DNA from: Cochliopodium minus
Lineage: Eukaryota; Discosea; Himatismenida; Cochliopodiidae
DNA: 23,522 nucleotides
Direction of reading: 5' to 3'
Assembly (NCBI GenBank): GCA_024220525.1
Contig: JAMYWO010000126.1
Span: 46,717 to 70,238 of the forward strand
The notes beneath the pieces are model-generated. The model was not told where the DNA came from. It saw only the letters and a program-made list of their open reading frames with translations, and made no database searches. The translations under genes and the position numbers were made by a program. Below, in pieces: positions 3,080 to 23,058 of this stretch (its first letter is position 1; each line of letters begins with the position of its first letter).

Positions 3080-4279
3080 TCACAATACATCATCAAAATT
3101 TTCATCATCTTTCTCATTATCATCAGTAGAAGAAGTCTTTCCCTCGAGCTCTTCTTGTCTCTTTTGGAGGAGATACTTGGTTTCCTCAGGAAAGAGTCGC
3201 AGAGCTTCCTCAATCTCCTCGGTTGACTTTGGATCAAAGTCGTGAAGCATTCTTCTCCACTTACGCACTTGACCATCCCAACTTCTCTTACTGCAAATTT
3301 GGTTCTTTCTAGGGGTGACAGGGCAACCCTTTTTTCTTTCGAATATAGGAACCTTCTTGCAGTACATGTAGTAACTGAGGGTCTTTTTGCCCAAGTCGAT
3401 TTGTTTTTGTCTTTGATCCAATCTGCGATCATCTGTTTCGATGTGAGAGTTGTTCTTGATGGGGGTCAAATCTAATTTGAGAGGGGATGAAGGGACATTT
3501 TTATCGATCAATGGCTTGAGGGTCTGGATAGGGATGAATTGGACGGTAGGCAATACATTATCCATCTTTAAGATGCTTTTATTTTCATTGGCAGCAATAT
3601 TCAGCTTTTCAAGAATATTGATTTGTTCAATGCATTTATGAGCATTATTAATGTTGGATGTGGTAATATTGACGACCATAGGGCTTGATTCACCAGAAGG
3701 GGATCTCTTCTTGAAAATCGAATTTGCTTTGTTGTTGTTTTTTTTGATAGGTGTTTTGAATTCTCTTGGCTTAGGATTCCTCAATTCTTCTGGCCAATAC
3801 TCAAATCCAATAGGTTTTGGACTCTCCTTTGGCTCCATTTTCAGCAAATGATAGATGCTGTAAGTTTTTCTCATCACATTCGACTCGTTTCCCAGGAATA
3901 TCCCCACAGATGATAATGCCTCTTCATTTTTGCTGATAATTGCATCATGTAGTTGATCCACTCTGACTTCCTTATCGTGCATAGTGGGTGGTGCATTTTC
4001 AATATCATCTGGTATTTTCTTTTGTTGTACCCCTTCAACAGATGGTTCAATAGATGGCGCCAATAAAGTATTAGTGTGGCCACTCACTAAATTTATGTCA
4101 CCATTATTATCCTTCTTGTTGATGTATATCTTGCTGTTGGTTCTGGTATTTACTTTGATGATTTTTGTGGTTTGCTTTTTACTTGCAATATTTCTCTTTT
4201 CTGCCTTTTCTTCATTTGTTTTGTTGGAGATATTCAATTCATTCTGGGTCCTTATGCTAAATGGTTTTCTTGTTGTCAT
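3080..4279 (-). CDS. SLBP: Histone RNA stem-loop binding protein (SLBP)
   Basis: This is a single-exon protein of 399 residues. The SLBP RNA-binding domain is clear at about residues 285-350: RQKQIDLGKKTLSYY, then KKVP, a TPRK element at the place of the phosphorylatable TPNK of animal SLBP, then SKRSWDGQVRKWRR and LHDFDP. The usual closing motif is HxWDP, so Phe replaces Trp here. SLBP binds the 3' stem-loop of replication-dependent histone mRNAs and controls their 3'-end processing, export and translation. The N-terminal 280 residues are mostly disordered, basic and Ser/Asn-rich, with one conserved-looking block (FEYWPEELRNPKPREFKTP). The acidic C-terminal tail (TDDNEKDDENFDD) fits known SLBPs. 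It is divergent from the TYW4-TYW5 gene. The shared promoter holds an E2F-like site about 130 bp upstream of this ATG, consistent with S-phase expression. Confidence 0.92.
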   Translation of the reverse strand: MTTRKPFSIRTQNELNISNKTNEEKAEKRNIASKKQTTKIIKVNTRTNSKIYINKKDNNGDINLVSGHTNTLLAPSIEPSVEGVQQKKIPDDIENAPPTMHDKEVRVDQLHDAIISKNEEALSSVGIFLGNESNVMRKTYSIYHLLKMEPKESPKPIGFEYWPEELRNPKPREFKTPIKKNNNKANSIFKKRSPSGESSPMVVNITTSNINNAHKCIEQINILEKLNIAANENKSILKMDNVLPTVQFIPIQTLKPLIDKNVPSSPLKLDLTPIKNNSHIETDDRRLDQRQKQIDLGKKTLSYYMYCKKVPIFERKKGCPVTPRKNQICSKRSWDGQVRKWRRMLHDFDPKSTEEIEEALRLFPEETKYLLQKRQEELEGKTSSTDDNEKDDENFDDVL

Positions 4280-4567
4280 TGCCTCGATATATATAACAAA
4301 AAAGTCGTTTTGATAATTATATAAAACGATTATATTCCTTTTTTCTTTTTTTTTTTTTTATTTTTAATTACTTTCTTACTCATGAAGTGAAAAAAAAAAG
4401 AGCGGTTTTTGGCGGGAAAAAAAACATCTTAAATTGCTTCAATCATATATATTTTAAAGATTATTTTCTTTAATCCATCTCGCAAATTGCATTCATCTTT
4501 TTATATATAATTTTAATGGCCGTTATTTATAATTATTTTGCTTTATGAAATACAAAAAAAAATAAAG
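4280..4567. promoter_or_regulatory. Divergent promoter region SLBP / TYW4-TYW5
   Basis: This 288-bp AT-rich spacer lies between the two divergent ATGs, with long T and A runs. Its only GC-rich island is the E2F-like site near 4408-4419. TATATATAATTTTAATGG near 4501 could serve as a TATA-type element for the plus-strand gene (inference). An ATG near 4544 opens a frame that stops after six codons. Confidence 0.6.
4408..4419. promoter_or_regulatory. E2F/DP-type binding site TTTGGCGGGAAA
   Basis: TTTGGCGGGAAA contains GCGGGAAA, which fits the E2F consensus GCGSSAAA, and it is flanked by T and A runs. It is the only GC-rich stretch in the spacer. It lies about 130 bp upstream of the SLBP start and about 150 bp upstream of the TYW4-TYW5 start. 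E2F control is well known for S-phase genes, and SLBP is a histone-mRNA S-phase factor. That E2F binds here is an inference from sequence. Confidence 0.5.
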
Positions 4568-7500
4568 ATGAAGAAAGACAAAAGAATAAAAGAAAATAAA
4601 ATCAATATAGAGCAACATCCATCTTCGGTTGCAAAGACAAATGATGATTCAATAGTCAGCAAAAGTAAAAATACAAATTTCAAGAGTCTTAATTTTTAAA
4701 TATATCATAAGGATCTTCCTCTAGAAAAAGATATTTCAATGATGAATTTCTTGGGAGGGTGGTCAAAAAACCCTCAATGAGATCACCATTGATAAATAGA
4801 GGATATTGGATCAGATGTGTTGCAGTGCGTGATTTATTAAGACAATTTCTATCAGATACAAAACATCAAAAAAAACAAATCATATCTTTTGGAGCAGGTT
4901 TATTTTAATTTGAATACCTTATTTTCTCAAAAATTTCTCAAAATACATAAATATTCTTCTTATTAAAAAGGATTTGATACGAGTTATTTCGTATTGAAGA
5001 ATGAAGGATTGATGGGAGAAGGATGTTCATTTTATGAATTGGATTTCAAATCGATAGTGGAGAGGAAGTTGATTTGTATAGAAGATGCACCCAAAATGGT
5101 TGAATTGATAGGGGAGGTGAAAAAGATAGAATCAACAGAAGAATCATTGGATATAATAAGCAAAGATTATTATCTCTTGACTGCTGATTTGAGAGATTTG
5201 AATAATCTATCCCACAAATTGAAAGAATATGGGGTAGATTTCAATGCACCAACTTTATTTTTTGCCGAATGTGTGATGACATACATGAAAGCAGAAGATT
5301 CATCAGAATTGATCAAATGGACAAGCGCCAATTTCAATTTGGGCCAATTTGTAAGTTATGAGCACATTAATCCTCAATCTGCATTCGGAAATGTGATGCA
5401 ATCAAATCTAGGCTCAAGAAATTCTCCGCTCATAGGAGTATATCAATATCCAACAAAGGAATCTCAAAGACAAAGATATTTGGATCTTGGCTACGATGAA
5501 TGCAAAATTCAAACCATTTTGGAATTTTATGAAGAAGAGATAAGCGAATCTGAAAAGAAAAGAATCTCTGAAATTGAAGAGTTTGATGAATATGAAGAAT
5601 GGAATGAGAAATGTTCGCATTATTTCATACTCGTCGCTAACAAGAAGTCTCTACACACTGTACGAACTCAAATCGGATTCAAAAACTCATCTCACGTAGA
5701 AAAGATAGACAGGAGTGAAAGCGGCAACGTCATCCAAGAAAATCAAAACAATGTAAATAAATGGTTCAAGTTGGAATTAGACGGTCGTGCTAGCTCTGCC
5801 AAAAGATGGGGTCAATCTTCTGTTGCTTATGGCACCAAAATAATTACTTTTGGTGGATACGGAGGATCAAAGAGGCATTCAAGGTAAAAATTTAATTATT
5901 ACTTTCAAACTTTAATTACTTTTTTGAACAAAATAGATTGAACGATGTTCTCACCTTAGATGTAATTTCTGGGCAGTGGGAACTTCCTTTCATTTCTGGC
6001 ACTGCACCTTGTGAAAGACTTTTCCACACATCCGCAATGATCGATAACAACATGTATATATACGGTGGAAGAAAAGGTCCATCAGATCCTTTGTCTGATT
6101 TGTTCACTTTGGATCTTTCCGAAATGAAGTGGAAGAAAGTGGAAGATGGAGGAGATCGTCCACCAGCTAGGTGGAGGCATTCCATGAACAGTTGGAAAAA
6201 CTTTTTGGTTGTTTTTGGAGGGAAGAGGGGTCTCTCTGATCAAGACGCTCTTAACGATTTTCATTTGTTTGATACTTCTACCTTTAAATGGAAATCTGTT
6301 AGTCTCAACAGTGGAAACATTTCTCATAGACATTCTCATACTTCACAGGTTTATGGTGACAAATTGTTTATTTTTGGTGGAATGAGTTCTTATTGTACAA
6401 GATTCAATGATCTCTATTGCTTGGACTTGAACACATTCGATTTGAAAAAGATAGAGTTGAGTGGAACTATTCCTGATCCTTCTTTTTCCATCTCTTCTTC
6501 TATTTACAAAAACAAGTTGTATCTTGTCGGAGGAATTTCCAGCAATTCAAAAAATACCATTTATGGGGTTGATCTCGAAAGTTTTGTGGTTGAAGATATA
6601 TCGCCTCAAACAACCACCAAACCAGAAGAACTTTGTATCCTTGCAAGACACAATACCTGTTTAGTTGGAAACAGAATCTACGTTATCTCGGGAGGGTTGT
6701 TATGCTTTTCTTTCGGAACTTTTTTCAACGACACTTTCGTTTATCAATTTGGAGAAAACTTTGATGCGCCCATTCAACACCAATCCACATCCAACATCCC
6801 CAAATCCTTAGGTAACTTAAGCAACAACACCGTCATACAAATACCAAGGCTCACCAACGTCTCTTTAGAAAAGTTCCAAGAGATCTACAAAGAAAGGAAG
6901 CCTGTGATCATTTCCGGCGTGGATTTCGGAAGTTGCACAGAAAAGTGGAAGGATACACAATATCTCAAAGACATTATGGGCGATCAAAAAATCTCTGTTC
7001 ACATCACCAAGAGTACCAACTTGGATTTCCTCAACAAAAACTTCAAGTTCAAAGTCTTGCCTGCCAACGCTTTCGTTGAAAATGTCTTTGATGAAAAATG
7101 CAGCAGTAAGTTCTATTTCAGATCTGTGGGTGAGAATATCAGAAAGGATGTTAGCGACATCTACTCGAACTTTCCCAAGATGTCCGAAGACTTCCAAGTC
7201 CCTTCCATTGTCCCCATGGCCAAAGAAAGATATTTCTCCTCCTGTCTTAGATTTAGTTCAAAAGAAATCAGAATGTGGACACATTACGACATTATGGTAC
7301 TGAAAATTTTTTAAAATTTTCATTTTTAAATTTCATTTGTTTTCATTTTGAAGGACAATATCTTGTGTGGCATTGTTGGTTCCAAAAAAGTCACTCTGTG
7401 GGCACCTGATCAAATTTCCAACTTGTACGTCTCTGACTCCAGCTCCCACGTCTTGGACATTGATAACCCGGACTACCTCAAATACCCCAAGTTCTCCAAA

Positions 7501-7800
7501 GCCAATCCAAGGTATGAGGGAATCTTGAACCCTGGTGAGTTCCTATTCCTCCCTTCTTGTTGGTTTCACAACGTTATTACTCAAGAACCTTGCATAAGTG
7601 TTAACATCTTCTTTAAACATCTTGGTGACGAGTTTTATGCTCCTAAGGATCTTTATGGTAACAAGGATCTCTTGATTTTTGATGAGCAAACTCAGAAGAT
7701 CGAGGAGGCTCTCCAGATCCTTCAGAACACTGTTCCAGACTATTTTACTTTTTATGGAAAGAAGTTGATTGATAAAATCAAATCCAAATACAATCTCTAA
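4568..7800 (+). CDS. TYW4: tRNA wybutosine-synthesizing fusion protein TYW4-TYW5 (LCMT-type methyltransferase, Kelch, JmjC)
   Basis: Five exons (4568-4664, 4712-4897, 4971-5883, 5937-7296, 7354-7800) splice in phase to exactly 1001 codons, 1000 residues. Residues 1 to about 330 are a leucine-carboxyl-methyltransferase-like domain: AKTNDDSIVSKRS at the start, PLINRGYWIRCVAVR, the SAM motif FGAGFDTSYF near 93, AECVMTYM, and the closing AHYFILV-like CSHYFILVA. A Kelch propeller follows (about 335-690; repeated FGG/YGG and LDL turns). A JmjC domain covers about 700-985, with the iron ligands HYD (848 and 850) and FH (924). The enzyme completes wybutosine at position 37 of tRNA-Phe: TYW4 methylates and carboxymethylates, and TYW5 hydroxylates. 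Fusion of the two is known from some fungi and plants, while animals have separate proteins. It is followed at 44 bp by THOC6 on the same strand. Confidence 0.93.
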
Positions 7801-7843: not shown

Positions 7844-9223
7844 ATGGATTTGAACAGTTCTTTTTTGGAATCAACTTTGAATATTGATTTATTTCAAAAA
7901 AAAAAAAAAATGAACACATATATTTCTCAGATCAATCAAGATTTGATACAAGAATGTTCAATCATTTATTCAAGCTTGATTGTCTCGAATTACCTTTTAT
8001 GTGGAAATAATTTTGGGGAGATATTAGTTTGGGATTTCAAAATAATAAGCTCAAAGGTAATAGAATGAAAATTTGTTAAAGTGCAAACAATAGATAACCA
8101 AAATAATTTTATCATCAATCAAAAGAATATTTTAATTTTTCATTTGTTTTTATTTAATTTATAAAGTGGTAATATATCAATATATTGATATATAGATTTT
8201 TATCCCAATTATCTTTCATTTTATAGAAAAATGCAAAATATCAAATAAAATTTAAAGCGCATGAAGCACCAATATACGAGATGAAAGAAGATAATGGATT
8301 GATATATCTATGCACAAATCAAGGAATAAGAGTATATAAACTACAAGAGATCCTCTCAGGGAAAAAAGAGGCGGGGATTTTGTTCGACATAAATTCATTT
8401 GAAGCAAAAAAGGGCCTATCGTTCAACAGCATAGTATTGGGGGATAAAAAACTTTTTGGAGCCTCCATTGATGGAAACATCTATTGTTATTCGATCGAGG
8501 AGGGATTGAAGGATTTGCAAAAGATTTCTGGCCACACTGATAGTGTATTGACTATGGATCATCACAAAAATTCAAAGAAACTTTATTCTGGTGGAGAAGA
8601 TGGAAGTTTGAGAATTTTTGGTATCTTTTTTTTTTTGCAAAAAAATAAATAAATAAAAATAATAAAAAATAAAATAAATAAAAATAATAAAAGTAAATAA
8701 GGGACATATTGAAAAAACCCAAACTTAAAAACAATACAATTTTAATAATTCGATTTTTTTGTTGTTGACAGATATAAATTCTTGTCAACAAATCAACTGC
8801 ATTGACGTCTTCGAAGGCAAAGAGTCGAGAAACAACAAGGCAACAGGAAAATGGGTGAGCTCTGTCAAAGTGGACGAACAAGAGAACTGGATCCTTACGG
8901 GTGGTGGGGATAACGTCCTGGGAGTGTGGCACTCTTCGAGTAGTTCCCTCGTTTCTTCCTTACCCACTTATTTTAACATCAACACCACTTTATTTTATGA
9001 CACCAACAATGTCTTGGTTGGAGGAAACTCTCGTAACGTTATGACGATGAATTTAGATGGTACAAATTTGAACACTTTTGAGATTGCTGATAAAGGCAGA
9101 CAGAGGTGTGTTTGGGACTTCAAGTTCAAGAATGACTATTTGATCTCTGTTGGCGATTATTTCGTTCAGATTTACCCTGACATCCTCAACAACTTTTACA
9201 ATGCTATTGATTTGGATCTTTAA
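7844..9223 (+). CDS. THOC6: THO complex subunit 6 (THOC6), WD40 protein
   Basis: Three exons (7844-8056, 8227-8620, 8772-9223) join in phase to 353 codons. The protein is a WD40 propeller closely resembling THOC6: CGNNFGEILVWDF, FKAHEAPIYEM, the GHTDSVLTM and SGGEDGSLRIFD repeat, then GKWVSSVKVDEQENWILTGG with LGVWH, which is the THOC6-specific GRW...GGG...LWH region. THOC6 belongs to the TREX complex, which couples transcription to mRNA export in the nucleus. Two in-frame starts are possible: 7844, and 7910 right after a 15-base A-run. The second gives 330 residues, closer to human THOC6 (about 341), and the A-run before an ATG is typical here, so 7910 may be the real start. The spacer to the upstream TYW4-TYW5 stop is only 43 bp (109 bp with the second start). 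Confidence 0.88.
8172..8193. other. 22-bp perfect AT palindrome in THOC6 intron 1
   Basis: Positions 8172-8193 read identically on both strands, centred on CAATATATTG. It lies inside the 170-bp first intron (8057-8226), 33 bp before the acceptor. It could fold into a hairpin in the pre-mRNA, but a chance occurrence in such AT-rich sequence is possible. Confidence 0.6.
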
Positions 9224-10415: not shown

Positions 10416-13400
10416 ATGGAGGATGATGAATACAAGGATATCAGGGATGTGGATGAATTGCATTCCATCATATTCAATATGAACGAAGATTATAAAGAAT
10501 TGGAAAGTCATTTGCAGGAAGCTGCATCGTATGGAGCAAAATTATTAAATGATAATAAAGAATTGAGAGAACAGATGGATGAATTAGTACCCTTTTTTTT
10601 ATTACTTTGAAAAAAAAATTTTTTTTTAATTTTAAACATGATATCTATCCAAATAACAAATAGAAAAGCAATACAGAAAAAACAGATCATTATGAAATGG
10701 TGAATTTAAAATATATAAATTAATTATCCTCAAAATTCCTTCAAAATTCAGAAAATAAAGATTCTGAATGAACAATTGAAAGATGCACAATTGTTGAATG
10801 GATCATTGGAGATAAAAATAGAGAAATATATTGAAGAATTACATAATAAAAACAAAGAAATTGAGCATATGTCTCCTTTCAAGGAGAAATCCAAGCAATT
10901 GACAAACGAAATACAGGAGAATACGAAAGATCTCGAACAATTCAAGTTATTGAGAAGAGAGAGTATGCGAATGGAAATGGATAAATTGAAAATGCAAAAG
11001 GAATTGAGTAATACCCAAAATACTTATAAATCCATAATATAATATCTTTTATTTCTATCCCCCAATCCATTAAAATCAATATCCGATAATCTAATACCTT
11101 TAATTAAATTAAATAAGGGAAGGAAGCTGTTAAAAATTTTGAATACGATTTAACCAATGAGGAGTTGAAGAAACAAATTAGTGAGTTGAAGGAAGAAAAC
11201 TCAAAGCTAAGCAAAAGAGAAGAAGAAGTTTCGGGCATGAAAGAAAAAATGATGATTGTATTTTTTTAATTTTTGATTGATTTTATTTTTTTTATTTTCG
11301 TTTTTTGTGGCTACATGATAGTTGTATAAAAGAGATTTAGTTTTGAAGGAGTTGGAAAAAAACCAGATAAAAGGATGTGTTGATTTGTTGATCAATAACC
11401 GGAAATTTCTTACTTCTCTGTCCGAAGGAAAAATTGATGTTTCTAAGAATGTTACAGTGTTTGCAGAGAAACTATTGAATATTCCTTCCAATGGGCTAGA
11501 GAGTTCTTTAGAACTAGATGATCAAACATTATTCACTGTAACTTTTTTTTCTTCTTCTTTTAGTTTTGTTTATATTTATTTTTAGATCTGTGCTATTGTT
11601 TGCAGCTATCAAAATACTATTCTTTTCTCTGAGAACGAAAAGTCGAAAAAGGAAAAGCAAGAATTTGAGGAACAACTTGAAGATATTATGATAGAGTTGA
11701 AACAGAAAGAAAAGACTATTCAAGAGATTAACGAGAAGAATCTGGAAGACATGCAGAAGCAAACAATGCTGGAAATAGAAAACAAGCATCTCATTTCTTC
11801 TTTGGAGGAAGAAAAGAAAGTCATGCAACAAAATACAAACAAATTCCAGGAAGAAATTTCTCACTTGGAAGAAGAGAAAAAGTCTTTTCAAAAGGAAATC
11901 GAAGACCTCAAATCTATCATCTCTACTTCTTCTCAAAACAACGAGAGCTTACAAGACTTGCAAAAGAAAATCCAACATCACTTGGACAAAATAAGGGAAT
12001 TAGAAGAAGAGAAAGAAAAAAGGGCACTTTCTGAAAGCAAAAAGATTTCGAATTTAGAGAAAGAAAATAAGGAAAATTTGGAAGAAAATAAACTGTATGA
12101 AAAGAAAGTAATGACTCTCATGGACGAACTTTCGAACCAAGAGAAGGAGAAAACTGAACTTTTCAATGTGATTCAAATTCTTCAAAAGACGGAGCTGAGT
12201 AACAAGGAGCTTTATTCTTCAAAAGAAGAGTTAGTGTTACTTTTAGAAAAATCACAAAAGAGTCTTGAAGAAAACATCAATCAATTGAAAGAAAAGGACA
12301 GAGAAATAATAGGGTTGCAAGAAGAGGTCAGTAAACTTAAAGAGGAAATAAAAAGAAAGAACAAATCTGAAGAAGAGTTAAAAGAGAAGAATCACCAAAA
12401 TGAAAAATTGTTGAAGGGAAAGGATGGGGAAATAGAAAAGCTGAACAAATCTTTGCAAGAGAAGATAGAAGAAACTGGAAATCTCAAAAAAGAAAATGAA
12501 AGAAAGGAAAAAACAATCGGAGATCTCAGAAATAATAGTGAGAAGAAAGACCAAAATGAAAAATTGTTGAAAGAAAAAGATGGGGAAATAGAAAAGCTGA
12601 ACAAATCTTTGCAAGATAAAATAGAAGAAACTGAAAATCTCAAAAAAGAAAACGAGAGAATGGAAAAGATGATTGAGGAACTCAAAAATAGTAATGAGCA
12701 AAAAAAAAAGTCGTTGAAGGAAAAGGATGGGGAAATAGAAAAGCTGAACAAATCATTGCAAGATAAAATAGAAGAAACTGGAAATCTCAAAAAAGAAAAT
12801 GAAACAAAGGAAAAGAAGATGGAGGAACTCAAAAATAGTAATGAGCAAAATGAAAAATTATTGAAGGAAAAGGATGGGGAAATAGAAAAGCTGAACAAAT
12901 ATTTGCAAGAGAAGATAGAAGAAATAGAAAATCTCAAAAAAGAAAATGAAAGAAAGGAAAAGTCGATTGAGGAACTCAAAAATAGTAATGAGGAGAACAA
13001 CGATAAAAGAGAAAGAATTTCAAAAGAAAAAGATGGAGAAATAGAAAAGTTGAACAAATCATTGCAAGATAAAATAGAAGAAATAGAAAATCTCAAAAAA
13101 GAAAATGAAAGAAAGGAAAAGAAGATTGAGGAACTCAAAAATAGTAATGAAAAGAGTGACCATTATGAAAAATTGTTGAAAGAAAAGAATGGGGAAATAG
13201 AAAAGCTGAACAAATCTTTTCAAGATAAAATAGAAGAAACTGAAAATCTCAAAAAAGAAAATGAAAGAAAGGGAAAAATGATTGAGGAACTCAAAAATAG
13301 TAATGAAAAGAGTGACCAAAATGAAAAATTGTTGAAAGAAAAGAATGGGGAAATAGAAAAGTTGAACAAATCTTTGCAAGAGAAGAAAGAAGAAATAGAA

Positions 13401-16400
13401 AATCTCAAAAAAGAAAATGAAAGAAAGAAAAGTTCTATTGAGGAGCTAAAGGTTGACGCAGATTTACTCCAAAAAGAAAACCAGCTGCTTAAAGAAAAGT
13501 GTGAAGGGTATGAAAAGGTTGAGCAAATCAAGTGGAAAATTTCTGAAGAATTGGTCCAATATGAAGCCACCCAAGAAAAGAATCTCGTTCCTATCAATGT
13601 TATGGGTGAAAACTTGAGTTTACAAGTCAATATAAGAGATCCAATGAGTGAAACTGAGTCTGAGCTCAAACATTACAAAGAGAAAGCATCCGAGCTCGAA
13701 AAAAAGGTCATAGAGCTCGAAATGTCCTTAGAAGAAACCAAGAAACAAGCCTCAACACTTCAAGAACAATATGAGAAGTCCAAAAAAACGAGCCAAAAGT
13801 TTATGAACGATCTTAAGAACTACCAAAAGGAGATCTCGTCTAAGAATGGACAAATAATAAAAATTCAAAATGAACTGAAAAACCTTGAGGAATTGAGTAA
13901 TAATTTTTCAAGAAGGAGCAAAGAAAAACATTCTCTTGATACAGAAAAGTTGAACGAAAGAATTACCCTACTAGAGAAAGAGCTTCAAACTCTGAAAGAT
14001 GAGAAATCAGTTTTGGAATCAAAAATCCAAGATCTGGAAAAAGAAAACAAAGAAATCGAACAAGAGAGTCTTGAGATGTTCAAAAACATCGAGAAAGAAA
14101 AGAACAATTACTTTGAGGAAAACAATGATTTGAAACAAGAGAATCAATCCAATTCTCAGAAGATTTCAGGACTTGAAAACAAAATTATCAACAAAAGAAA
14201 CAAGTTGATGAAGCAAAAGACTCAAAACGATCTTAATTCACAAGAAATCGATTCCATCAAAAAAGAGAATACAAATCTTCGTGAAGAATCTAACAAACTC
14301 AAATCCAACCTAAAAGAGTCTGAAGACAAAAACAACAAGCTCAAACAAGATCTTGGTTCCCTCAAAGAGAAGCTCAGAAGCCTCGAGATACAGGAAGAAG
14401 AGTCTAACTCCAAGATTTTTGTTCTGGAGAAGAAACACCAAGAGCTTGCAGGTAAGATTCTGATCCTCGAGGAAACCAACACTTCTCATCAAAACCAAAG
14501 AGATATTTTTGAAACCAATAACAAGAAGACAAGGGAAGAAATAAACAATCTCAATGAAGAGATCAAAGATTTGAAGATCAAGATTTCAGATCTGGAGGAT
14601 GAAATATTGAGCAAGGAAAACATCAAAAACGAGTCTAAAAGTGCTTTACTCAAAAAAAAAGAGAAGAAAGACCAGCTCAAAGAGTTGTTGATCCTCAAAG
14701 ATCAAACGATATCTGAAGATTTTAAAAAGATTGAAGATCTCAACAAAGAAATCCTAATCCTTCAAAACAAAATGGATGAAATGAGCAAAGAGCTCGAAAT
14801 TGAGAAGGACAAATCTTTCGAAAATCTTGATCAACTCCTCAAGGAAATTGATGATCTTAAGAACAGTCACAAGAAAGAGGTGGATACCTTGAACGAGAGA
14901 ATAGATCAGTTCGAAATAGATAGAGTACAGCTATTTTCAAAAATAAATGAATCTGATGTTTTGAAGAAAGATTATGAACAACAAATCGAATCTTTGAATG
15001 AAAAAATCTCTCTTCTTGAAAATCAAAAAGAAGATCTCAATAAAGACTCTTCAGCTTTGAACGAGAGAATCAACCAGCTTGAATCAGAAAGAGACAAGTC
15101 AGACGAGTCATACAAGCAATTGTTCTCTAAACTGAATGACTCTGATGTTTTGAAGAAAGATCATGAACAACAAGTAGAGAAGTTGAACAAAACGATTTCA
15201 TATCTCAAAAATGAGAAAGAAGAATTAGATGAAAATGTTTCTAGACTTGAACAAAATAATAAAACTTTGAAAGAGAAAATAGATCAACTAGAGAAAGAAA
15301 GAGATGAGTCCGAAGAGTCTCACAAACAACTTCTTTCTAAATTAAATGGTTCTGATGTTTCGAAGAAAGAATACGAACAACAAATGGAGAAACTAAAGGA
15401 AAATATCTCACATCTCAAAAATGAGAAAGAAGAATTGGATAAAAATGTTTCTACACTCGAATACAGAAATAAAACTTTGAAAGAGAAAATAGATCAACTC
15501 GAGAATGAATCCAAAGAGTCTCACAAACAACTTCTTTCTAAACTGAATGACTCTGATGTTTTGAAGAAAGATTATGAACAACAAATGGAATCACAAAGAG
15601 AAAAGATCACACATCTTGAGAATCAGAAAATGGAACTCAACAAAACCGTCTCTACACTTGAATACAGTATTCAAAATCTCAAAGATAGAATTAAAGTGAT
15701 AGAAAAGGAAAGAGATTCTCACCTAGAACAAAAATCTGGAGCTGACATAGATAACCAAAAGCTGAGATCAAAAATTCTTCAACTAGAAAAAGAAAACAAA
15801 CAATTCCAAAACGAGAGACAAAAGATCAAATCTGAACATGAGAACGAAGTAAACAGATTAGAGCAAGAGAAAAGAAAGTTGAAACAAGAAAAAGATGATT
15901 TGGAAAATGAAATGCAAGGACTCACAAATAAGATGCACCATCTCGAGAATTCTGTCCAGCCTATCCTCAAAGAAACCAACAACTCTCATCTAGAAATTGA
16001 AATCAATAGATTGGAAGAGAAACTATCAAACAAATCTGATCAATTAAAGAAACTGAAGAAAAAGTACGAAAAAGACAAGTCCACTTGGTCAAAGAAGAAC
16101 GAAGAACTTGAAAAAAAGCTCCTCTTTGAAAACAACAAGTACTCTACATTGGAAAAAGACATGGATGCCCTTTTTGAAGAAAACATGAATCTACTTGAGA
16201 AAGTGAAAGAAGTCGAAAAAGCAAAAGGATTAGACATCACTCCTCTTCAAAAAGAAAAAGAATTGTTGCTTCAAGAAATCGAACACCTCAAAAAGCTCAA
16301 CAGTAGTTTGAAGAGAGACAAACAACATTTAGAGAAGAAGCTCAAATCTGCACAAAAGAGATTATCTGATCCATCTTTCCAAAAAGAAAACGAAAACATT

Positions 16401-19400
16401 AACAATCAGATGATTTCTTTGGACAAAGAACTTGAAATCAATGAGAAAGAAAAGAGAAAGCTCAACTTTTATCTCGACAACAGTACAAACTCTTCTCTAA
16501 ACTTTAGTCCTATCGAGAAGAAAAAAGAACGCGACAGCCTCAAAGATATCTTTGAGCTTACCATTGCCAACAACTCTCTTGTCGAAGAGAAGCTGAATAC
16601 TCTGAAAGAAATTTCTCTTCTTCAAAATAAAGTCTCTTCTCTCGAAGATGAAGTCAATACTTCCAAATCCAAACTTTCCAAGCTCCAAAAAGAAAAGATA
16701 AATCAAGAAAACAATTTTCTAGAAGAAAGTAAAAGATACAAGATGATTATTAGTTCATTAGAGAAATACAAACAAAACGGTCACAAAACAGAAATGTTCC
16801 AACCTGAAAAAGCATCTGTTTTGAATAAACTCGAAAATGACAAGGAGATTCTCATGAACTTGAAAGAGAATATCAACGATTATCAACAAATGAATCAAGA
16901 TTTGGTGGAAGAAATCAACAAATTTGAGGTGTTCTTGGGAAATAACGAACTCAAAACCTCCGATAACATCAATAAATTAAAACAAAACGAGTTTGAAGAA
17001 GCTCTGAAGAAAAGGATTGAGAAAAAATCTTTTAAAATCAAATCCCTCAAGCAAAAAATTGATGAGAAGAACAAGTATATCACCCAACTAGAAGACAAAC
17101 TGTTCAGCGAGAAAGAAAAAATCAAAATGAATGATTCATACGAGCTTCTTAATAACTCTTTTGAGAAAACAAATTATAACAATGATATTATGTCTGATCT
17201 CTCCAATATCATTCTCCAACTAAACAATTCTTCTTCTGATGTGCCATTGAGCAGATTTTTGAAAGTGTTGAATGATCTGAAAGAAACCTGGAAAAAAAGA
17301 GAAATGGATGTTGAACAAAAGAATAGAGTCTTTGATTTGTTGAAATCTACAAATAAAAAACTAACAGAAGAGATTTTGTCATATCAGGATGACACTAAAG
17401 AAGCAAGAGAAAATGAAAGGATTGCTAATGAACGTCTCTTAGAGCAAATCAATCTCACAGAAAGATTAAAAACACAAATCAATCTTTATAAAGTCAAGAT
17501 CGAAGATGTTTCAAAAGAGAATCAAAGAAAAAGCATCAATTTAACTGAAACTCTCCATCAACAACCGATCATGCAAAACAATACAACCACAAACAACAAC
17601 AATAATAAACCTCAAGAAAAACCAAAGTTTGTGATACCAAATCTAAAACTTTCAAACTTGAGCTTGAATTTGGAAGCACCCAAATCAGACAGGCCAATGA
17701 ACTCCGAAGTGAAAAAGCCAGTTGAAATTCCTCAAAAACTAAGTATCACATCCAATATGGTACCCAAACTCAAATTCTTGAAAGAAAATGATGAATCACA
17801 GCAGCTCCCACTGAGCGCAAGAAACAATACCACCAAAATAATAGAAAAACCTAAAAAGGAAGGATTCCAAAAACTCAATTTCAGCTCTATGAGTAATATG
17901 AATGATGACATCGTAAGGGTTTCTTCCAAAAGCGCCAGAGGATCCAAGAACTTTACCAAGATGCTCTCCAAAGAAAGTTTGATCACAGGAAAATCTAGGA
18001 TTCTAAGAAACTTTCTAGAGTTTTACAAAAACGATATTTTCTTGGATGAATACTACAAAAAATTCTTTCCCATCAAAACCTTGAAGAACCTCCATGAACT
18101 CTTGTCCGATGGTGCCATCTTGTGCAAATTGATAGAATTTACGTTCCCTGGGGAAGTGGATGAAAGATTGATCATCAAAAAAGTGAATGGAAAGAAAGAA
18201 CTTACTTCCAACTTGAAACTTTTGTACGGTTCTTTTCCTCTTATTGGAATCAAAGCTAAATTTCCATTGGAAGAACTTTTATTCGAACAGCCTAACAGAG
18301 AAAAAAAACTTCGTCAACTAGGATTTCAGATTCTTGAGCAGTACACTTTCTCCAAGATTTCTCTTTTCGCCCATCCTCAGATCATGTCTCTTTCCCAGAA
18401 AGAAACTATTTCCGAAATGCTCTCATTAGATGCAAAGACAATTTTGTTGAGATGGATCAACTTTCATCTCAAGAAAAATGGAAAGAGTGAAGTGATTTCG
18501 ATAGAAGATACTTCAAAATTTGTAAAAAAAAAAAAATTTTTAATCTTTTTTATTTTTAAATCTTTTCATCCCAGGTTACATCAATGAACTTGATTGTTAC
18601 TCTGTTAAAAATTTTGGATCCCAACAACAAAAACCTCCAAAAAGTATCTTACGAACAATCTAACCACCCGGACGTAGAATTCATTGACAAGTATATTTTG
18701 GACACCACCTACGAGTGGGGAGTGGTTCCCATCTTTGACTCTAGCTCCATGATGATCACCAAGGATACCCGCATGTCCGTTATGTTCCTTTGTCACTTGT
18801 TTGAAGCAAGATCAAGATTGCCATTGACAACAAACGCGCCAAGATTAGAAAAAAAAACAATCACAAAGTACAGAGAAGAACAAACATTTAAAACTTTTTG
18901 TAACAGCCTAGATGCTGTTGATCCTCCTATTCAGGATCTCCTCAAGGAATCAAAGACTGGTGTTCCTCTCTTACAAATCGCCTCTTCCATCATTCCTAAC
19001 ATCAAAGTGAACTGGAAGAGCCTTCACTCCGCCCAAGAGAACGTGGAGCTCTTCATCTCTTTGATCTCTAAGATTGGAATTGATACAAAGTCCGTAAAAG
19101 CTTCTGACATTCTAAAAGGAAAGAGAGAAGTGATCCTTCTTTTGATTTGGCAACTGATGGAATATCAGTAAGTTACATATTTTATTTTATTTAATATTTT
19201 TTATTTTTTATTAATTTTTCTTTTTTTTTGAAATTTAAAAAAAAAAAAAATTAGTTTGTTATTCAATGTTATTAAAACCGATTCAAGAGAAGATATCAAA
19301 AAATGGTTCAATAGCAAACTCAAATACCTAGATATGCAGCCTTTCAGCCGATATGATGACGAACGTTTCTCCAATGGTGAGATGATGATAAAATTTATCT

Positions 19401-19624
19401 CCCTATTGGATCCCAGCACCAAAATGAAAGAGATATCTCGAGATAGAGCCAGCTCCAACAACAAATATATCATTTCTGCTGCCCGCAGATTGGGAATACA
19501 CTCTTGTGTCAATTATGAAGATCTCAAAAATGTGAATGGCCGAATGATTTTTGTATTCCTATGTTATTGCTTCTCTCATTGTGCATCCCTCGAAAAAGAA
19601 AATATTAACAAGGAAAAAAAATAA
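10416..19624 (+). CDS. Giant coiled-coil protein with N-terminal CC1-box-like motif and C-terminal fimbrin-type four-CH actin-binding module
   Basis: Seven exons (10416-10586, 10752-11007, 11118-11257, 11322-11537, 11586-18521, 18575-19167, 19255-19624) splice in phase to exactly 2894 codons (2893 residues). Residues 29-57 contain LESHLQEAASYGAKLL, matching the AAxxGxxLL CC1 box by which dynein adaptors such as BICD and Spindly bind dynein light intermediate chain. Residues of about 260-2250 are a Glu/Lys/Asn-rich coiled coil with two internal repeat blocks. A disordered Asn/Pro/Ser linker spans about 2250-2390. Four calponin-homology domains follow (about 2395-2510, 2540-2655, 2670-2770, 2785-2885) in fimbrin/plastin order: LHELLSDGAILCKLI, the plastin-like VDERLI, LLRWINFHLKKNG, and AARRLGIHSC near the end. 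The fimbrin EF-hands are absent. Expected roles are F-actin binding and possibly dynein recruitment. The domain calls are strong for CH and coiled coil. The dynein link is inference. Confidence 0.9.
12396..13452 (+). repeat. Seven tandem coding repeats of 49-53 codons in the coiled coil
   Basis: The unit reads approximately NEKLLKEKDGEIEKLNKS, then a LQDKIEETENLKKENER block, then a KMIEELKNSNE block. The GGGGAAATAGAAAAG core (GGAG in unit 5) recurs at 12426, 12582, 12729, 12876, 13035, 13191 and 13347, giving spacings of 156, 147, 147, 159, 156 and 156 bp. DNA identity is high, including synonymous sites, which points to recent in-frame expansion or gene conversion. Length changes are whole codons. 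The antisense strand is open through this block and gives spurious Phe/Ser-rich frames. Confidence 0.9.
14900..15735 (+). repeat. Four tandem coding repeats of 63-70 codons in the coiled coil
   Basis: The unit runs through a QLLSKLNDSDVLKKDYEQQ block, a NISHLKNEKEELDKNVSTLE block and a NKTLKEKIDQLEKERDE block. The marker TCTGATGTTT recurs at about 14952, 15141, 15351 and 15552, giving spacings of 189, 210 and 201 bp. It is distinct from the 12396-13452 repeat and more diverged, hence probably an older expansion. Confidence 0.85.
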
Positions 19625-19884: not shown

Positions 19885-20731
19885 ATGATGATGATCAATT
19901 TTTCTACAGAGATTCAATGTAAAAATTTTTTTTCTCAAGGATATATTTGAGATATACCTTTATAAATTTCATTAATTTAAAAATATAAAATATATTTTTA
20001 AATTCAACAATTCTTTAAAATAAAAGTATAATTGATGCAGTACCACCCCCACCAGAAGATGGTTACAATGATTTGCAAGAATTGAACGATAATATCGAGC
20101 AGGTCGATCATAACAGAGATCCCCAACTCACCGAAAGAGAAAAAGAATTAATGCAAGAATTAAATTCATTGAGATCCAATCCAAGAGTGTATTTTGATTT
20201 ATTAGTCAGAAGAAGAAAACATTTTTATCTCCAAAGTGAAATGGATCAGGATCAAGTTCAAACTAATACCAACATCAGAGAAGGAAAACAAGCAGTATTG
20301 GAATGTATCGAACATCTCGAAAATTTGAGTGGAGTGACTGAAATATCCTTCGAGAACGGAATCCATCTTGCATCCCAAGACATCAGAGAGAGAATTGGAA
20401 ATCAAAATGGTACTGAGCCAACTTCCGCTGAAGAGGTAAATGATGCTCTTTACAAATATGGAAGTTATAGAGGTAATTCTGTCCAATTGGTTGGCTTTGG
20501 ATATGACAATCCTAAAGAAGTTTTGGTAAATATTCAAATAATATCTCAGAAATCTAATTTATATACTTTTTTTCATAGTGCCATCTATTAATTTCTGATG
20601 GTGATAAATCCAGAAAATCAAGATCTATTCTTTTGAATGATGATTTCCGCTTTGGTGGACTTGCTATGGGAGATCATGGTATGGTTGTATTTCATTTCAT
20701 AACTGAAGAATGGACCCCAAATTACTATTAA
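19885..20731 (+). CDS. CAP/SCP-superfamily domain protein, no signal peptide
   Basis: Three exons, 19885-19918 (34 nt), 20041-20525 and 20579-20731, splice in phase to exactly 224 codons (223 residues). The first exon encodes MMMINFSTEIQ and is chosen because its GT donor phase matches the GCAG acceptor at 20037-20040. No ATG opens the main frame. The body fits a CAP/SCP fold: LTEREKELMQELNSLRSNPRVYF (first helix, N-x-x-R), NIREGKQAVLECIEHLENLS, a YGSYRGNSVQ segment, then LLISDGDKSRKSRSILLND and FGGLAMGDHG, resembling the IDDG...RGHR...GVAxGxH core. The usual His of RGHR is absent (RKSR). CAP proteins are mostly secreted, but no hydrophobic leader is visible here, so it may be cytosolic. Its specific function is unknown. 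It follows the coiled-coil gene by 260 bp on the same strand and is convergent with the acidic gene. Confidence 0.72.
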
Positions 20732-22470: not shown

Positions 22471-23058
22471 GGTCTCCAAACCGAAGTAAAATGGGATAAA
22501 TTTATTTCTGCATTTGGAAAATTCAATGGAGAAAATTATGATTCACAATCAATCGAATATAAATTGATGAAGTCTCTTTTCTCTCCTGAAGAGAAGAGCG
22601 TGGGATTGGAGTTGTTCGGTAACATCATCGGATTCTTCACCTCTCTGAAACCTAAAACCTGGGTCTCCAACGCTTGTCAGTTGATGTTCCAAGACTTTTT
22701 TTGGGGTGATACCTCTGGTCCGAAGGCTCAAAAGGCTTTGGGTAACAAGCCTGAAGGTACTTTCTTAATTCGTTTCTCCTCAAAGGATAGTAATTACACT
22801 CTTTCATTTGTTGGCGGAAAAAAGATTTGGCATACCAGAATCATCCATCCTTATGCTCAAAATAAATTTGCTCTTGATGGGGCTCCCAATAAAATCTACT
22901 CTTCACTTCAAGATCTCATCAAGGCAACCAAGGAGAGTGGAACCATCGATGAGGTTTGTGAGGGTAATCCTTTTAAAGTTTTATTTGGAGATACTCTTGA
23001 GAATGCCGGTTATGCGACACTGCAATATGATTCAGATAGCGACGAGCTTGACATTTGA
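22471..23058 (+). CDS. SH2-domain protein, C-terminal part (5' truncated at contig start)
   Basis: The last exon follows an ATTTTAG acceptor at 22464-22470, and upstream exons are missing. About 196 residues remain. An N-terminal segment of roughly 80 residues (VKWDKFISAFGKFNG, ELFGNIIGFFTSLKP) resembles the EF-hand-like helical region that precedes SH2 domains in Cbl/STAT-like and dictyostelid SH2 proteins. The SH2 domain follows: FFWGDTSGPKAQKAL, KPEGTFLIRFSS with the phosphotyrosine-binding Arg of the FLIRFS strand, the central strand YTLSFV, then IYSSLQDLIKATKES. The tail is acidic (DSDSDELDI). It should bind phosphotyrosine peptides in signalling. Whether the missing part is a kinase, a STAT or something else cannot be told. 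An AATAAA overlaps the stop codon at 23058. Confidence 0.82.
   Translation, partial: GLQTEVKWDKFISAFGKFNGENYDSQSIEYKLMKSLFSPEEKSVGLELFGNIIGFFTSLKPKTWVSNACQLMFQDFFWGDTSGPKAQKALGNKPEGTFLIRFSSKDSNYTLSFVGGKKIWHTRIIHPYAQNKFALDGAPNKIYSSLQDLIKATKESGTIDEVCEGNPFKVLFGDTLENAGYATLQYDSDSDELDI

Follow-up and report, generated by a model that had tools for sequence, protein, structure and literature searches.

The window analyzed here, a 23,522-nucleotide stretch of contig JAMYWO010000126.1, carries on its plus strand, at positions 10416-19624, a gene whose predicted product begins with a motif resembling the CC1 box of dynein adaptors, continues as a very long interrupted coiled coil, and ends in four CH domains (CH1 to CH4) of the type found in fimbrin. 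When the gene was rebuilt, its seven exons joined in phase into 2893 amino acids plus a stop, reproducing the 2894 codons of an earlier sequence-only reading of this DNA. One gene is the simplest reading of the seven exons, with splicing predicted as follows.

10416-10586, plus strand: exon 1, residues 1-57, with the start ATG and the N-terminal coil that bears the CC1-box-like motif
10752-11007, plus strand: exon 2, residues 58-143 (of codon 143, the first base only)
11118-11257, plus strand: exon 3, with 11117 as the favored acceptor and 11126 as the alternative
11322-11537, plus strand: exon 4, residues 190-261, mainly the non-coil break separating the first coil from the second
11586-18521, plus strand: exon 5, residues 262-2573, with the bulk of the coil, the linker, CH1, and the start of CH2
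18575-19167, plus strand: exon 6, from the splice model; the best fold matches of its single-sequence model are fimbrins, none of them significant
19255-19624, plus strand: exon 7, containing the stop codon

All six introns of the chosen model have GT-AG boundaries. The GT-AG pairs that keep the frame open were enumerated for each intron (15 choices in all; 2, 4, 2, 3, 2, and 2), and the final model takes one choice per intron, picked by eye. Intron 2 has a second possible acceptor at 11126, which would give a protein three residues shorter (2890 amino acids); 11117 is favored because it is the first AG downstream of the donor. Coding potential was assessed with a codon-based score trained on window segments taken as coding (1852 codons), a set that took in parts of exons 5 and 6 and is no independent test of those parts. 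The assigned frame came out on top among the three forward frames in all seven stretches compared (exons 1 to 4, 11586-11687, 11688-12387, and exon 7), and among all six frames it was best in five of the six stretches upstream of residue ~530, one reverse frame outscoring it in exon 3 (0.48 versus 0.32). The part of exon 5 that precedes its first ATG (11586-11687) scored 0.37 in the assigned frame, the best of six, with the runner-up at 0.34. GC (guanine plus cytosine) content is 0.30 to 0.35 in the scored exons and 0.07 to 0.22 in the introns.

Three sites in the first 280 residues invite comparison with dynein adaptors.

10521-10547, plus strand: CC1-box-like motif, the sole AAxxG of the protein; ranked first of 2872 windows by a 22-column profile, with Spindly (8arf) third among the PDB matches
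10788-10838, plus strand: HBS1-like position, with Q70 at +34 from the first Ala, then several glutamates, and N three residues on
11622-11633, plus strand: LFSE (residues 274-277), resembling the Spindly motif, where the second coil begins after the break

In exon 1, the sequence-only reading had noticed an AA pair and a GxxLL spaced like those of the CC1 box at the extreme N-terminus, and this was borne out: AASYGAKLL occupies residues 36-44, and no AAxxG other than its AASYG (residues 36-40) occurs anywhere in the 2893 residues. Because Ala and Gly make up just 1.4 and 1.7% of the residues, whole-protein composition predicts 0.0096 copies of AAxxG; for AAxxGxx[LV][LV] the expectation is 0.0002. 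The longer pattern arose in 10 out of 300,000 free shuffles of residues 1-100 and in 37 out of 150,000 that preserved the heptads; AAxxG alone arose in 691 and 661, respectively. Once A36 is assigned to the core to fix the heptad register, the core is made up of V12, L15, I19, M22, Y26, L29, L33, A36, G40, L43, N47, L50, M54, L57, and I61; A36 and G40 thus both lie on core positions, and the remaining ones are hydrophobic save N47. In Spindly (A23/G27) and BICD2 (A43/G47) the equivalent residues occupy a and d positions and leave an open cavity for the light-intermediate-chain helix (PMC9481740).

Over 43 ungapped columns, the predicted protein shares 12 identities with Spindly, 11 with BICD2, 10 with BICDR1, and 13 with TRAK2, while the six pairs among these four adaptors share 8 to 17. 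Five columns are invariant in the four, three of them in AAxxG (both Ala and the Gly) and two outside it (Gln in each), and all are kept, the latter as Q53 and Q70. By its AAxxG motif and predicted core register, the N-terminus fits the CC1-box class. Q70 shares its +34 offset with Q57 in Spindly, Gln150 in BICDR1, and a Gln in both TRAK2 and BICD2; the heavy-chain binding site HBS1 is QxxY/H, and Gln150 of BICDR1 is named as a contact (PMC7615804). From the first Ala to LFSE there are 239 residues (236 with the shorter acceptor), compared with 235 in Spindly, whose own motif likewise follows a break and opens the second coil (PMC9481740). LFSE satisfies the looser form of the Spindly motif, L[F/A]xE, used in PMC11310688, and the Spindly motif of NuMA is also off consensus (PMC11623564). 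The chance of an L[FA]xE within an 18-position span is ~0.017, the span having been picked after LFSE was noticed, and use of an alternative acceptor at 11633 would splice LFSE out. In TRAK2, LAAEI, taken here as its Spindly motif, stands at a spacing of ~246 as read off the printed alignment.

At the other end of the protein, the four CH domains are arranged as follows.

17988-18368, plus strand: CH1, PF00307 E = 2e-05, 25.2 bits (cut-off 26), and fimbrin alignment
18417-18823, plus strand: CH2, PF00307 E = 7.4e-05, 23.3 bits (cut-off 26), split by the intron at 18522-18574
18860-19264, plus strand: CH3, PF00307 E = 1.4e-10, ending within exon 7
19277-19621, plus strand: CH4 and the C-terminus, PF00307 E = 1.5e-08

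Pfam CH matches and PDB fimbrin alignments confirm what had been proposed for the last ~500 residues, namely, four CH domains in fimbrin order. Across the entire actin-crosslinking core, residues 2396-2893 are collinear with three PDB matches: fimbrin from Arabidopsis (1pxy, E = 9.9e-34, query 19-478), fimbrin from fission yeast (1rt8, 8.8e-27), and plastin-3 (3.7e-24). Identity to the two aligned fimbrins is 26 and 28%, and CH1 keeps DGxxLxKLI and the DER block. Structures were predicted for contiguous exon pieces only. The single-sequence model of exon 6 (predicted local distance difference test [pLDDT] score, 64.7) has fimbrins as its top four Foldseek matches at E values of 0.06 to 0.22, none significant (best, 0.061), and the model of the CH1 piece was unusable (pLDDT 39.1). 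The 326 residues that lead up to CH1 match no Pfam family, EF-hand included, with an E value of 0.01 or lower, in agreement with the earlier claim that EF-hands are absent; residues ~300-870 and 980-2100 lay outside the Pfam scans. Judged by these alignments, the C-terminus is a fimbrin-type module, and the protein itself, with no EF-hands found before CH1 and a different architecture, is no fimbrin.

Between the two ends lie the coil, two repeat arrays, and a linker.

11640-17552, plus strand: long interrupted coiled coil, ~residues 280-2250, called with a crude heptad score
12384-13444, plus strand: tandem repeat of 156 bp (52 residues), 6.9 copies, in-frame, inside the coil
15086-15616, plus strand: tandem repeat of 210 bp (70 residues), 2.6 copies, in-frame, inside the coil
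17565-17987, plus strand: Asn/Pro/Ser-rich linker, ~residues 2255-2395, delimited by proline counts

The heptad score is our own and not a published predictor. It gives a first coil that is weak over residues 55-134 and ends at ~195, a non-coil stretch at ~195-265, and a renewed coil from ~270; this coil is weak across the glycine-bearing repeat region (~495-855) and broken at ~910-960 and at later proline-bearing points. Seventy residues equal ten heptads; 52 residues are no heptad multiple, and the array at 12384-13444 should therefore bring register shifts. A span of up to roughly 300 nm had been suggested for the case of a continuous coil; because the coil is not continuous, a length of ~290 nm stands as an upper bound only.

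Like the known CC1-box adaptors (Spindly, BICD2, BICDR1, and TRAK1/2), the protein has AAxxGxx[LV][LV] near its N-terminus, its Ala and Gly assigned to the coil core, a glutamine where HBS1 has one, and a coil break followed by L[FA]xE near the spacing of Spindly. Unlike in these adaptors, the Y/H of HBS1 and the fifth residue of the Spindly motif are not kept, and a fimbrin-type CH1-CH4 cargo end is not known in any of them. NuMA is similar in plan, with the dynein-binding N-terminus, coil, and C-terminal anchoring region that the present protein may also have; the N-terminus of NuMA comprises a Hook domain, a CC1-box-like motif, and a Spindly motif, and its C-terminus anchors, also at the cell cortex (PMC11623564). 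NuMA differs in this Hook domain and in a C-terminus that binds microtubules and LGN, without CH-domain actin binding. Nesprin-2G likewise has both kinds of motif, CC1-box and Spindly-like, as well as CH domains, although its motifs stand in reversed order and its recruitment of dynein requires BicD2 (PMC11310688). Nesprin-2 giant differs further in its spectrin repeats, its N-terminal CH region, and its KASH membrane anchor. The protein agrees with fimbrin and plastin in the number (four) and order of its CH domains, the alignment being collinear across the actin-crosslinking core. Fimbrins and plastins, however, have ~600 residues and an N-terminal EF-hand pair directly before CH1, whereas here the module forms the C-terminal end of a protein of ~2900 residues, with no EF-hands found before CH1. 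Fusions of a fimbrin-type CH unit to another protein do occur, as in IqgD of Dictyostelium (PMC13299636). IqgD differs in that it has two fimbrin-type CH domains only, which are N-terminal on an IQGAP. Comparable to the proposed plan are fungal cortical dynein anchors of the Num1 type, in which a coiled-coil N-terminus engages dynein and the C-terminus serves for anchoring; they differ in that this end is a PH domain attached to the membrane.

We put at about even the chances that the gene product is a dynein adaptor, a dimeric coiled coil of ~2893 residues with an actin-binding module at its cargo end. The analysis shows the predicted gene model, the motif with its register, and the CH module; the pairing of the chains, their attachment to dynein, dynactin, or actin, and any role in the cell are inferred. 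Two chains would pair as a parallel coil, of which residues ~12-190 would lie along the dynactin rod, and LFSE, past the coil break, would contact the dynactin pointed end. A further ~1950 residues would serve as an interrupted spacer, leading to C-terminal CH1-CH2 and CH3-CH4 pairs that would bind F-actin. Dynein held on actin in this manner could pull microtubules to the cortex or another actin structure; alternatively, it could carry actin along microtubules. The proposal in its most specific form, to which we give somewhat less than an even chance, is a protist CC1-box activating adaptor with a complete fimbrin-type crosslinker as its cargo site, a homodimer that would join dynein-dynactin to actin over a distance of up to ~290 nm. 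In the open-licence literature, we found no description of a CC1-box protein with a fimbrin-type module or of such a direct motor-to-actin bridge. The sequence-only reading had already suggested a protein bridging dynein and actin; the presence of both ends in one gene model and the fit of Q53, Q70, and LFSE speak for this idea, and it is weakened by the plain-profile and PDB results, by the partial HBS1 and Spindly motifs, and by the CH3 loop, all described below.

A number of observations weigh against an adaptor of this kind, and several of them come from profile tests of the N-terminus. A plain 43-column profile fails to set the site apart from the best other window of the protein. With a standard background the site scores 14.7, second of 2848 windows to a repeat window at 588 in first-model numbering (15.8), and with a coil background 5.9, second to a CH2/CH3 window (7.2); its score was reached by none of 3000 free and none of 3000 heptad shuffles in the former case and by 4 of 3000 of either kind in the latter. 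When the plain profiles were rebuilt leaving one adaptor out, the held-out adaptor scored above the query in eight of eight comparisons, and another window of the query's protein outscored the query in one of four with the standard and four of four with the coil background. A six-frame scan of the whole 23,522-nucleotide stretch (9438 windows), which excludes the N-terminal site because that site crosses a splice junction, gave the same repeat at 15.8 and the next open reading frame at -4.0.

Coil-corrected profiles, in which a heptad-specific background is subtracted, were built after the plain-profile result was known, and for this reason all five variants are given. The site ranks first with columns -8 to +34 (of 2851 windows; -1.0 versus -10.2), with columns 0 to +34 (of 2859; 3.7 versus -6.9), and with the 22 columns 0 to +21 (19.0 versus 3.9 for the next window), its score being reached by 54, 37, and 0 of 20,000 heptad shuffles, respectively. 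In both wide ranges, the held-out adaptors again exceed the query in eight of eight comparisons. With 22 columns, the held-out scores are 9.4 for Spindly, 22.8 for BICD2, 26.1 for BICDR1, and 24.3 for TRAK2; on the corresponding leave-one-out models, in the same order, the query scores 15.6, 17.2, 21.3, and 17.8, inside the range of the held-out adaptors. The box itself therefore appears specific and its flanks divergent. The comparison of a CC1-box profile with random coiled coil, proposed earlier as a test of the motif, thus came out in its favor in three of three coil-corrected ranges and left it second with both plain backgrounds.

Database searches with the N-terminus are likewise weak. 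A 268-residue N-terminal query gave four weak matches in the PDB and no adaptor at E <= 10. In a subsequent phmmer search of residues 4-100 against 177,635 PDB sequences, Spindly (8arf) came third (E = 0.16, 16.1 bits), a match that is not significant alone and is outscored by two unrelated sequences, one from a ribosomal protein (0.016) and one from a designed bundle (0.13); as a benchmark, Spindly used as the query retrieved BICD2 at E = 0.05 and 17.2 bits. Pfam assigned no adaptor family to the N-terminus (best, COG6_N, E = 0.0021, under cut-off), a negative that is uninformative either way because Spindly itself matches no Pfam adaptor family.

Also to be counted on this side are departures within the motifs and domains. 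The heptad register is gone from residue 64 (E64, D68, S75, and K82). Three residues past Q70 the protein has N, where Spindly, BICDR1, and TRAK2 carry Y or H, and LFSEN (residues 274-278) has N at the fifth position of the consensus L-hydrophobic-x-E-hydrophobic; L[FA]xE occurs three times in the whole protein, with 2.2 copies expected. Scanned singly, CH1 and CH2 fall under the Pfam cut-off, which CH3 and CH4 pass. The loop that follows VNWK in CH3 (19007-19042) is shorter by 8 residues than in 1pxy and by 12 than in 1rt8, and this is no splicing artefact, since the site lies inside one exon. The shortened stretch is near a secondary actin-contact region, and actin affinity could therefore be lower. 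Five scans for relatives were all empty: the CH module was run on viral and genome contigs, the N-terminal 298 residues on viral contigs, and the alignment of the CH module with fimbrins on genome and viral contigs, and none of the 14, 35, 0, 104, and 94 pattern matches was confirmed by tblastn. This lack of relatives says little, as the collections scanned are of prokaryotes and viruses. According to PMC3583065, dynactin1 and dynactin3 were not found in Naegleria gruberi, which would matter here only if the source were heterolobosean; the same article gives Heterolobosea a complete Arp1 rod under one of the authors' evolutionary models (PMC3583065), and no mention of dynein in Naegleria spindles was found in PMC9036621.

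On a rival reading, the protein has no dynein role and is an actin-bundling or cortex-spacing coil protein with a fimbrin-type module, its AAxxG being a chance feature of the coil. We regard this as unlikely, though a serious alternative. The CH module is the sole part with significant database support, the N-terminus being non-significant in both PDB and Pfam; the plain profiles place a repeat window or a CH2/CH3 window over the N-terminal site, depending on the background, and the Spindly-motif and HBS1 matches are partial. Chance is harder to reconcile with a motif that is expected 0.01 times in so Ala-poor a protein and yet is N-terminal, core-positioned, and accompanied by Q53 and Q70, or with the first rank of the site in all three coil-corrected column ranges.

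The doubt may instead fall on the other end, in that a genuine dynein adaptor could carry a CH module that has lost actin binding or binds another partner. The missing 8 to 12 loop residues of CH3, an identity of 26 and 28% with the fimbrins aligned, and the subthreshold Pfam scores of CH1 and CH2 taken singly would suit such a protein, and CH-like folds do serve in other roles, as in Hook domains. All four CH domains are nevertheless present in fimbrin order, and CH1 keeps DGxxLxKLI and the DER block; we consider this improbable. Lower still do we rate a mis-joined model of two genes, in which a transcript of exons 1 to 4 would end near 11582 and a second gene would begin at ATG 11688. This internal ATG lies in exon 5, and several splice choices are open, four of them for intron 2. 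Set against this, 11586-11687 gets its highest coding score in the frame of the model, the six introns are all of low GC content, and all phases join; the split is, in our estimate, highly improbable. A Spindly-type kinetochore role was considered, since Spindly is the nearest adaptor in the PDB, and was dropped; nothing in the sequence points to kinetochore binding, and the C-terminal module is of the actin type.

If the reading as a dynein adaptor with an actin-binding cargo end is true, dynein could be attached to actin by one protein, with no chain of adaptors, membranes, or cortical scaffolds, which would offer a simple and testable means of positioning spindles or nuclei in actin-dominated cells. 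CC1-box adaptors would then exist outside animals, and the protein would be a marker for their age. The same reading predicts a specific, easily disabled pocket at A36/A37/G40. Were only the fimbrin part functional, a complete fimbrin-type module ending a giant coil would still be unusual.

Pfam matches were also obtained for other open reading frames in the window. One on the plus strand at 889-1644 matches a PI3K C2 domain, and another on the same strand at 2262-2675 has a weak PI3K accessory-domain match under the cut-off. The minus strand at 3083-4357 encodes a histone-hairpin-binding (SLBP) RNA-binding domain. On the plus strand at 4967-7797, neighboring reading frames show in succession a leucine carboxyl methyltransferase, a Kelch, and a Cupin_8 domain (Pfam covered 4967-7311) and are possibly one TYW4-like gene with short introns; a WD40 repeat reading frame is found at 8227-8649 (plus strand). 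The reading frame at 20019-20588 has no confident Pfam match; with its LTEREKELMQELNSLRSNPR start it may resemble CAP/SCP-like proteins. Single ambiguous bases (N) occur at 2898 and 22463, and a draft assembly is therefore suggested. Finally, the reading frame at 22471-23055 is one in which an unassigned stretch is followed by an SH2 domain.

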